DNA of 20,318 bases from positions 1-20,318 of the IMG/VR virus record IMGVR_UViG_3300019776_000124; one strand, given 5' to 3'. This document shows, piece after piece, positions 8,614 to 12,878 of this stretch. Made by a program: the position numbers and the translations under genes. Source of the DNA: a virus. The notes under the pieces are model-generated. The model saw nothing but the letters and a program-made list of their open reading frames with translations. It had not been told where the DNA came from and searched no databases. Position 1 is the first letter of the stretch; each line of letters starts with the position of its first letter.

Positions 8614-8951
8614 TTACGCTTGCCCTTCACTGCCGCCGGGGTGGCGATGCCTTTAGGCGGTTCGGTCGGTTGGCTCAGATGCTCGAGGTAGGCGGCATCC
8701 GCGGCCCGGATGCACTGGCGGAAAACAGCCCGCTCATGCTCATCCACCGGCCATGCCGCGATGCTTGCGGCGGGGATCGGGCCGCCCGCGTAGGCCCGAT
8801 CCGTCGACAATTCCCAGAAGGCTTCAAACCACGGCAGAACACCAGGAACAGCTTCCGGGGGTTCCATGTATTGCGGGATCGGGGCGCCTCGTTTCCGCAA
8901 TTCGGCCACGTTCCGACCGTGCCGCGCCTGCCACAAAACGAGGCTTACGAG
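8610..8951 (-). CDS. Tail assembly chaperone, T part of a G-GT frameshift pair
   Basis: This frame is open from the slippery site (CTC at 8951) to the TGA at 8610, 113 codons. It is probably read mainly as the C-terminal part of a 255-residue fusion made by -1 frameshifting from the upstream chaperone gene. A separate start would have to be the TTG at 8936, which lacks a convincing ribosome binding site. Residues are compact and rich in Trp/Pro/Arg (WQARHGRNVAELRKRG, then PGVLPWFEAFWELS). The family resembles the small phage tail assembly proteins found before the tape measure. In lambda, gpG binds the tape measure and the T part recruits tube protein; the same division of work is inferred. 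The stop overlaps the tape measure start (ATGA). Confidence 0.85.
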   Translation of the reverse strand, partial: LVSLVLWQARHGRNVAELRKRGAPIPQYMEPPEAVPGVLPWFEAFWELSTDRAYAGGPIPAASIAAWPVDEHERAVFRQCIRAADAAYLEHLSQPTEPPKGIATPAAVKGKRK

Positions 8952-8957
8952 TTTCCC
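8886..8957 (-). promoter_or_regulatory. Programmed -1 ribosomal frameshift signal (tail chaperone G/GT)
   Basis: Read on the minus strand, the heptamer GGGAAAC lies at 8957-8951, in phase as G GGA AAC. A 6-nt spacer (8950-8945) contains the zero-frame TAA. Then comes a perfect 9-bp stem, GCCTCGTTT (8944-8936) with AAACGAGGC (8894-8886). The 41-nt loop holds a second small stem (CGGCAC 8924-8919 with GTGGCCG 8909-8903, one bulge). Heptamer, spacer of 6 and stem are the classic elements, and lambda uses GGGAAAG at the same place in the same pair. The downstream open frame is exactly -1. Confidence 0.9.
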
Positions 8958-11232: not shown

Positions 11233-11499
11233 ATGCGCCTTGCCCTATTCGCCCTGCCGGTCCTTGCCGCCTGCGTCCCTGCCCCTGATGCACCCGGCGC
11301 AGTGACTGCCTACAACGGCAACACCGTGACAATCCGCAGCGGCGGGGATTTCAGCCTTGCCAATGCCGGGAAGGGCTTCGAGCCAACCCCCGCGGTGGTC
11401 GCTCAGGCACAAGAGGTTTGCCCCGGCGCGAAGTTCGCCTCAGGCACTGGCATCGAAGGCGATGCTTGGCTGGTGGATTACCTGTTCATCTGCCCCTGA
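11233..11499 (+). CDS. Small lipoprotein on the opposite strand (moron)
   Basis: 88 residues, the only credible plus-strand gene here. The ATG at 11233 has GGAGG 5 nt upstream. Residues 1-14 (MRLALFALPVLAAC) are a short lipoprotein signal: Arg2, hydrophobic core, lipobox L-A-A-C with Cys14 as the expected lipidated residue. The mature part is soluble, with Cys63 and Cys87 likely to form a disulfide (EVCPGAKFASG and YLFICP at the end). Small lipoproteins with this 'C-x-x-A-x-F/Y ... YLFxC' ending are common in Rhodobacteraceae chromosomes, where they are unnamed. It would lie antisense to the late transcript, divergent from the gp10-like gene and overlapping the end of the Mu F-like gene by 14 bp. 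Possible role: change of the host envelope, such as superinfection exclusion. No convincing promoter is visible. Confidence 0.78.
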   Translation: MRLALFALPVLAACVPAPDAPGAVTAYNGNTVTIRSGGDFSLANAGKGFEPTPAVVAQAQEVCPGAKFASGTGIEGDAWLVDYLFICP

Positions 11500-12247
11500 A
11501 CGGCGCGAAATAGTCGATCTTGATTTCGTAGTAGCACCGGCACTGGATGATCTCGCTCGCCGGTGCCCCGCGTGACGTATCGTGCGGGAACATCATCTGC
11601 GCCCCGGTCAGGGGGGAGACGAACGGCTCGTCAAGCCCCGCCTCCGCACCGTTCAACGCAAGGTGACTGTCCCTCGTTCTGTCGTCGCCGGTTGCGCGCC
11701 AGATTTTCTTGACCTGCGACCGCTGGACCTTGCCGGATTCCACCAGTTGCCGAATGCCTTCCTCTTTCCCCGCGTTCAGCCCGGCCAGTGTTTCATTCCG
11801 GGCTATGACCTCGCCACGCAGAGCCAAGAGTCGATCCTTGTAGCGCCCCGTGATCCGGTCCACGTCGGCGCGAGACAGCGGCTTGCCATCCCTGATCGCC
11901 CTCTGAACCAACCGGTCAAACCGTGCATCCCGCCGCGCCCGCGTCAGGTAGTTCCGCAGTTGCGCTGGGTCGCCGCTCAGGAGTTCAGCCCGCGCCCGGA
12001 TGACCGCGTCCGTCTGCGCCGCGTTCAAGCCCAGGATGCCGCCTTCCCGCAGTCCTGTGGCCCGGTTGATGCGGCCCGTGATTTCCAGCGCCGTCGCGCG
12101 CGGGTTCTGACCTTCGGCCTGCCCTGCCTCAAGGGCCAGCCGCACGGCTTCCTTGCTGTCCTCTACGATGCCTTCAATCAGGTTGCCCGCCTGCTGGCGC
12201 ATCCACCGCTCCGCGCGCGGGTTGCGCGCGTCGAAGCGGGTTACAAC
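11486..12247 (-). CDS. Mu F-like head morphogenesis protein, C-terminal part (reached by -1 frameshift)
   Basis: The frame is open from GTT at 12247 to the stop at 11486, 253 residues. The first residues, VVTRFDARNPRAERW, already look like normal Mu F family sequence, so coding begins before the first ATG (12202). Downstream are helices and, near the C-terminus, the family signature: IWRATGDDRTRDSH, LNGAEAGLDEPF, MMFPHDTSRGAPASEI and CRC. Joined to the 95 residues before the slip site it makes a 348-residue protein, a normal size for the family. Mu F-like proteins are minor head proteins, probably injected or placed near the portal. A separate start at 12202 with GGAG 6 nt upstream is possible. 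Unlike many phages the gene is well separated from the portal gene. Confidence 0.87.
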   Translation of the reverse strand, partial: VVTRFDARNPRAERWMRQQAGNLIEGIVEDSKEAVRLALEAGQAEGQNPRATALEITGRINRATGLREGGILGLNAAQTDAVIRARAELLSGDPAQLRNYLTRARRDARFDRLVQRAIRDGKPLSRADVDRITGRYKDRLLALRGEVIARNETLAGLNAGKEEGIRQLVESGKVQRSQVKKIWRATGDDRTRDSHLALNGAEAGLDEPFVSPLTGAQMMFPHDTSRGAPASEIIQCRCYYEIKIDYFAPFRGR

Positions 12248-12253
12248 TTTCCC
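12206..12253 (-). promoter_or_regulatory. Candidate -1 frameshift signal in the Mu F-like gene
   Basis: The minus strand reads GGGAAAG at 12253-12247, in phase as G GGA AAG, then TTG TAA. After a 7-nt spacer come an outer stem CCGCT (12239-12235) with AGCGG (12210-12206) and an inner, all-GC 7-bp stem CGCGCGC (12230-12224) with GCGCGCG (12218-12212), loop AACCC. GGGAAAG is the lambda G/GT heptamer. The next frame is exactly -1. A one-base deletion in the A run would look the same at the protein level, so this could also be a mutation or a base-calling error. Confidence 0.65.
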
Positions 12254-12531
12254 CCGGTGTCCGGGTCGGGAATGACCGGCAGACCGGACAGCGCCCGGAA
12301 TCCCCCTTCGATGTAGGCCCCTTGAATAGCCCGATCCAGCGGGGCAAAGAACGCCGGGTCCAGGTTCAGCACCGCTACCAGCCGCTGCACATCACCGGCC
12401 TTGATGGCGTCGATCACAAGGGCCATCTGCGCCTCTGACCTGATGTCCATGATGGACCGCAGGAAGGCATCGCGAATGACCGGCTCCATCGCGTCGATCT
12501 GGCGCTGCAGGGCAGTGGGGAAGCGAGCCAA
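12241..12531 (-). CDS. Mu F-like head morphogenesis protein, N-terminal part
   Basis: 96 residues in the zero frame: MARFPTALQRQIDAMEPVIR, then helices (AFLRSIMDIRSEAQMALVID, 'AIKAGDVQRLVAVLNLDPAF', DRAIQGAYIEGGFRALSG) and the end PDPDTGGKL. This helical 'GD ... LNLDP' block is what normally forms the first 90 or so residues of a full-length Mu F-like protein. The start is a TTG at 12531, supported by a GGAGGG box about 7 nt upstream. The stop TAA comes two codons after the slippery heptamer. On its own the product would be a short helical domain lacking the conserved C-terminal motif. If frameshifting is programmed, both forms are made. Confidence 0.82.
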   Translation of the reverse strand: MARFPTALQRQIDAMEPVIRDAFLRSIMDIRSEAQMALVIDAIKAGDVQRLVAVLNLDPAFFAPLDRAIQGAYIEGGFRALSGLPVIPDPDTGGKL

Positions 12532-12533
12532 GC

Positions 12534-12878
12534 CTAGCCCTCCAGTTCCAGATCAAACAGCAGGTCAACCCCACCCGGCGCCAGCGGCATCACCACGGCA
12601 ATCCGGTGCCACGTCCCGCGCACCTTCACGCGCCAGCCCTTTTCAGGGACGGTGCCATTGCCCTTGACCGTCAGAACCCGCCGCGAACCTGTGACCATTC
12701 CACCTGCATCGCGCTTTGCCACCTGATCGTCAATGACGATGATCTCGCCGACCGTGGCATATTCCGCGCCGCCTTCCGAGCCATCCGTCTCACACTGCCG
12801 CTCAAGCGTGGCCGCAAAGCCGACCGAAGCGATGGCTTCCTCAACCTCTGCGGCGATGGCGGCCCAATCTTCGCTCAT
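12534..12878 (-). CDS. Head closure / head-tail connector protein (stopper-like)
   Basis: 114 residues. A short N-terminal helix (MSEDWAAIAAEVEEAIASVG) is followed by a small beta barrel (GEIIVIDDQVAKRD, VLTVKGNGTVPEKGWRVKVR, WHRIAVVMPLAPGGVDLLFD). Size, fold pattern and place match head-closure (stopper) proteins such as SPP1 gp16 and HK97-type equivalents: just after the DnaT-like adaptor and before the joining proteins. The ATG at 12878 overlaps the adaptor stop (ATGA). It would close the portal pore until the tail docks. I do not recognise a named family, so the role follows order and fold. Confidence 0.72.
   Translation of the reverse strand: MSEDWAAIAAEVEEAIASVGFAATLERQCETDGSEGGAEYATVGEIIVIDDQVAKRDAGGMVTGSRRVLTVKGNGTVPEKGWRVKVRGTWHRIAVVMPLAPGGVDLLFDLELEG

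Follow-up and report, generated by a model that had tools for sequence, protein, structure and literature searches.

Organization of the MuF-Like Gene

The stretch of DNA under analysis (the window; 20,318 nucleotides of an IMG/VR virus record) encodes on its minus strand, at 12531-11486, a MuF-like head protein whose sequence is divided between two reading frames. The features of this locus are the following:

12241..12531, minus strand: N-terminal 0-frame open reading frame of the MuF-like gene, short product of 96 aa (ORF translation; phrog_3517 positions 11-95)
12538..12543, minus strand: Shine-Dalgarno-like GGAGGG upstream of the TTG start (read from the sequence)
12247..12253, minus strand: candidate slippery heptamer G GGA AAG, read in the 0 frame and invariant in six loci including the window
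12241..12243, minus strand: 0-frame stop codon TAA (sequence)
12206..12239, minus strand: downstream hairpin, 7 nt past the heptamer (fold and synonymous shuffles)
11486..12247, minus strand: extension of 253 aa in the -1 frame, containing the MuF domain (translation, PF04233, phrog_3517 positions 99-331, start-codon scan)

The short product of the 0 frame comprises 96 aa, from the TTG start at 12531 to the C-terminus ...DTGGKL. The heptamer stands in the codon context GGG GGA AAG TTG TAA, with the stop 6 nt after it, and is the sole in-frame XXXYYYZ motif within the two-frame overlap of the window. Frame -1 reads VVTRFDARNP... from 12247 to 11486, its translation from 12247 onward being VVTRFDARNPRAERW.... 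The N-terminal half (N half) matches positions 11-95 and the C-terminal half (C half) positions 99-331 of phrog_3517, a profile of 371 positions described as "head morphogenesis," and the C half scores 43.4 bits against the Pfam family Phage_Mu_F (PF04233), for which the curated cut-off is 29.6. The gene is assigned to the MuF-like proteins because its C half exceeds this cut-off and both halves are consecutive parts of one profile. It does not belong with the tail assembly chaperones of the G/GT type; it matches no chaperone profile, and a separate chaperone pair is found at 9376-8610. A preliminary description, made from the sequence alone, had seen the MuF sequence split over two frames at G GGA AAG (12253-12247), followed by TTG TAA, which is what is found; it had further stated that reading through by -1 would rejoin the family sequence into about 348 residues, and the fused product of the window indeed has 348 aa, with halves that abut on phrog_3517.

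Split Relatives and Their Heptamers

Comparison of the frames in which the N- and C-domain profiles match gave 127 loci with one open reading frame (109 distinct) and 26 split loci (14 distinct); a fifteenth distinct split locus, L170, was obtained in a later scan with the N-domain only and is outside the statistics for the first 14. Fourteen of the 15 distinct split loci are on IMG/VR contigs, the window among them, and the remaining one is a prophage located in a bacterial genome. All of them need a shift of -1, none of +1, and each contains in the two-frame overlap a 0-frame heptamer of the form X XXY YYZ. This is GGGAAAG in six loci (the window, L002, L003, L004, L039, and L129), CCCTTTT in eight (L035, L036, L051, L097, L103, L157, L023, and L170), and CCCTTTA in one (L033). 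In-frame X XXY YYZ heptamers are rare in the 109 unsplit homologs (59 in 37,063 codons, or 0.16%), and by chance about one of the first 14 overlaps, which sum to 609 codons, would be expected to hold one.

Three independent IMG/VR contigs, L002, L003, and L004, with C-half amino acid identities to the window of 92%, 85%, and 75%, respectively, share its split at GGGGGAAAG and its hairpin. The frames of L002 overlap by just 25 nt, so that the switch is pinned to the region of the heptamer. Split, heptamer, and stem, the conservation of which had been named in the preliminary description as the check to be made in related phages, are all present in these three relatives. An uninterrupted gene with an extra A and no stem, which it had set against its own reading, is not what the close relatives have, the nearest uninterrupted relative being 61% identical. 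In the 11 more divergent loci the break falls at the domain boundary at which the window is split and is accompanied by a canonical heptamer; the CCCTTTN site is mostly found 12 nt upstream of the position occupied by GGGAAAG (15 nt, by the profile coordinate, in L033 and L023). Nucleotide identity among the first 14 split loci ranges from 59 to 85%. Since the loci are related, they do not represent 15 independent events; three heptamers and two positions would be hard to explain by a single inherited accident. A scan of viral sequences with the C half of L023 did not reveal any relatives.

The 0-frame stop follows the slip site at a distance of 6 to 123 nt, and the tail that the short product acquires after the slip site is unconserved among the split loci. 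In 13 of the first 14 split loci the fused length is 331-351 aa, which is that of the unsplit proteins; the fused product of L157 has 625 aa, owing to a C-terminal extension. The extra C-terminal part of this gene (L157 1501-3099) matches phrog_8314, a profile of unknown function. An unsplit relative of about 588 aa (L131 1204-2967) likewise has a long C-terminal extension.

Distribution of Split and Unsplit Genes

The distinct unsplit relatives number about 109. Among 60 listed records of cultured phages no split MuF gene was found, each aligning in one piece, and in the sampled prophages of Rhizobiales, Rhodobacterales, and other Alphaproteobacteria, part of which were judged by the length of the open frame only, G258 alone was identified as split. 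Placing the split on a tree built from 96 C-half sequences takes nine changes, three of which are forced by well-supported branches, and the split has consequently been gained or lost several times; single-base changes make such gain or loss easy. As most relatives are unsplit and the distribution is patchy, MuF proteins in general can function without the split.

In two unsplit MuF genes (L056 and L068) an in-frame G GGA AAC occurs a few nucleotides upstream of the conserved C-half start. A -1 slip there would end after 13 codons, which might be the reverse arrangement, with the short form made by slipping, or might be due to chance. Another MuF relative (L198, genome G1367) has one in-frame TGA inside the match, through decay or sequence error.

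The Hairpin Downstream of the Slip Site

In the window, a spacer of 7 nt (12246-12240) separates the heptamer from a hairpin at 12239-12206, whose minimum-energy fold consists of 8 bp, one bulged A, and a further 6 bp (14 bp in all) closed by the 5-nt loop CAACC, with an energy of about -26 kcal/mol. The preliminary description had correctly placed a stem after a 7-nt spacer; the inner seven G-C pairs that it had described belong to an alternative register of the same hairpin and not to the minimum-energy fold. Against synonymous shuffles, the hairpin of the window has z values of -2.6 to -3.4. Shuffles that keep the protein and the codon usage of the gene give -2.2 to -3.2 over 42 nt for the six GGGAAAG loci, whose hairpins reach -22 to -26 versus a minimum of -20 at the same place among 82 unsplit homologs. 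The hairpin of the CCCTTTA locus L033 has a z value of -3.7. A putative stimulatory structure is accordingly assigned to the window and the other GGGAAAG loci, while synonymous shuffles revealed no unusually stable downstream hairpin in most CCCTTTT loci, L103 having one weakly. Compensatory changes in the stem were not found in the six GGGAAAG loci, four of which are too alike in sequence and two of which (L039 and L129) have hairpins pairing in a different register, so that the evidence for the hairpin is that of the synonymous shuffles. A search of Rfam gave no match.

The two groups of heptamers differ in the re-pairing that a slip would entail. The changes from AAG to AAA and from TTA to TTT lose full A-site pairing, for which reason these weaker heptamers may need a hairpin; the change from CCT TTT to CCC TTT retains it, and a hairpin is perhaps needed by the weaker heptamers only.

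Position of the Slip Site in the Predicted Structure

An AlphaFold2 model with a mean pLDDT of 95 was obtained for L005, an unsplit relative whose C half is 61% identical. Its N-terminal helical domain is composed of helices 2-31, 34-42, 46-51, and 57-88, and is followed by a coil, residues 89-101, which leads to helix 102-136; the sole internal dip in confidence spans residues 81-100. The slip site maps to residues 89-93, within the coil, and since it is located in the linker after the N-terminal domain, both the short and the full-length product would be made of whole domains. Modelled alone, the short product of the window is predicted to be a helical domain with moderate confidence (pLDDT 83, for the best of five models only). 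Among solved structures, a sequence search returned one short match to an engineered protein, which was taken as chance, and a fold search returned nothing below an E value of 0.001.

Proposed Expression of the Split Gene

From these features the following scenario is proposed. Ribosomes would start at the TTG at 12531, and most of them would read to the TAA at 12243-12241 and release the N-terminal helical domain of the MuF-like protein as a product of 96 residues. A fraction would slip back by one base on G GGA AAG, with GGA AAG re-pairing as GGG AAA, most likely aided by the hairpin 7 nt downstream, and the product of these ribosomes would be the full-length minor head protein, 348 residues long and including the conserved MuF domain. 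In a manner similar to lambda G/GT, slippage may set a ratio, at the time of head assembly, between the free N-terminal domain and full-length MuF, the latter in a few copies. The preliminary description had likewise suggested that the two products could set the copy number of this minor head protein. The slippage itself, its rate, and the product ratio at head assembly are what we infer from sequence.

That ribosomes slip back by one base on purpose, giving a short and a full-length protein, is very probable, because 14 other distinct phages or prophages are split at the same domain boundary. Programmed -1 frameshifting, as it had been suggested in the preliminary description, is strongly supported by the split, heptamer, and hairpin conserved in relatives, all of them features of sequence. 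We are highly confident that the muF gene would be expressed in this way. As to the purpose of the ratio that slippage may set, a more tentative proposal is that the excess of free N-terminal domain might serve as an assembly factor, with the rare full-length form bringing the MuF domain into the procapsid; the system might then be the head-side counterpart of lambda G/GT, and frameshifting in one phage would set two ratios, that of the head as well as that of the tail.

The functional part of this proposal has a rival that is just as conceivable, namely, that frameshifting is real and merely lowers the dose of full-length MuF, the short product having no task of its own. It would be in line with the unconserved tail after the slip site, with the unsplit relatives, which manage without a short form, and with the few copies in which SPP1 gp7, the studied MuF protein, is present (PMC6316719). 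The short product is, however, a complete predicted domain, and a weak start site would be a simpler way to lower the dose. Conservation of the N half cannot decide the matter, because it is needed by the full-length product, too.

It is very unlikely that the locus instead encodes two separate proteins, the C half being initiated alone, past the 0-frame stop, by re-initiation or at an internal start. In L033 and in some CCCTTTT loci a GTG does occur only a few codons away from the point at which the conserved C half begins, and a ribosome-binding site could be provided by G-rich sequence close to the junction. In eight loci, however (the window, L002, L003, L004, L039, L129, L035, and L051), there is no ATG, GTG, or TTG until at least 45 nt into the conserved domain, and the first start codon inside the C half of these loci is not conserved. 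Separate initiation is disfavoured by this lack of a start codon near the conserved start in the group of the window, and re-initiation was rejected on the same ground. Furthermore, the heptamer is found in the right phase at every junction, which re-initiation would not necessitate.

Still less probable is the main alternative of the preliminary description, a one-base deletion in the A run, by mutation or base-calling error, in one contig or in decayed phages, with a coincidental heptamer. The contig is one uncultivated virus record, homopolymer runs are prone to error, and most relatives are unsplit. This explanation is contradicted by the 15 distinct loci from different assemblies, which are all split by -1, with a heptamer at the same junction, and both sequencing error and random indels were rejected on the strength of these conserved cases. 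In the window, L002, L003, and L004, dN/dS is 0.09-0.16 in the N half and 0.07-0.19 in the C half; these low values show that both halves are under purifying selection and that both frames are translated. The neighbouring head-tail genes are also undamaged, the order Ad1-Hc1-MuF-Neck1 being kept, with Ad1, Hc1, and Neck1 intact, wherever this was checked. The split is neither a sequencing nor a mutation artefact. A toxin-antitoxin pair annotated as HipB/RelE lies on the opposite strand between the MuF and tail genes of Paracoccus phage Pkon1 (L020 3236-3841).

Slippage of RNA polymerase at the G/A or C/T run, which could likewise give a mixture with -1-frame products, as at GGGGGAAA in the window, is hardly credible, because the runs are merely 3-5 identical bases long, whereas transcriptional slippage normally requires about 9 or more A or T, and because what is conserved is XXXYYYZ in phase with the codons, accompanied in the GGGAAAG group by a spaced hairpin, which is the pattern of ribosomal slippage.

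Relation to Known Frameshifting Systems

The gene resembles lambda gpG/gpGT in the -1 slip proposed on a heptamer of the G GGA AAG type, in a short N-terminal product accompanied by a longer fusion that is presumed to be the minority form, and in its location in a late structural operon. It differs in that it belongs to a MuF head protein family (phrog_3517), has Hc1 and Neck1 as its neighbours instead of preceding the tape measure gene, and carries in its extension the main conserved MuF domain. The G_GGA_AAG heptamer is reported to be highly shift-prone in Escherichia coli (PMC5009743). The window holds a further candidate of this kind in its tail assembly chaperone pair (9376-8610):

8951..8957, minus strand: second frameshift site G GGA AAC, belonging to the tail assembly chaperone pair (second frame matched by phrog_3817 tail chaperonin)

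This -1 site, G GGA AAC TCG TAA at 8957, is laid out in nearly the same way as the site in the MuF gene of L002 (G GGA AAG TCG TAA). With a -1 site of the chaperone pair's own, the window appears to use two frameshifts.

Besides tail chaperones, phage frameshifting is documented for head genes with two products, namely, the major head proteins of T7/T3, A2, A118, and PSA (PMC5009743). The split muF gene shares with these the status of a phage head gene with two predicted frameshift products. In the major head proteins, the coat protein is abundant and complete without the shift, which appends a C-terminal extension that is often Ig-like, whereas the short form of the window is that of a minor head protein and is devoid of its defining domain; moreover, PSA uses +1, while muF needs -1. 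With the MuF/SPP1 gp7 family (PF04233) the gene has in common the Pfam and PHROG matches, the C-terminal motif, and the fused length; the relatives in the listed cultured phage records differ from it in having one frame each. In agreement with the preliminary description, which knew of no frameshift in this family, a frameshifting MuF gene was not found in searches of the open literature. The nearest match is the PRFect paper, which treats MuF-like genes only as parts of fusion genes (PMC10885494).

The best-known cases of conserved frameshifting among tailed phages are those of the tail chaperones, together with a small number of major proteins of the head or tail. A conserved site in the MuF family, placed at a domain boundary and built on at least two types of heptamer, would imply a rule of stoichiometry for a minor head protein of which little is understood. 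Split muF genes are likely to be listed by gene callers as broken or as two hypothetical proteins; such genes would offer a direct handle on the role of the MuF N-terminal domain.
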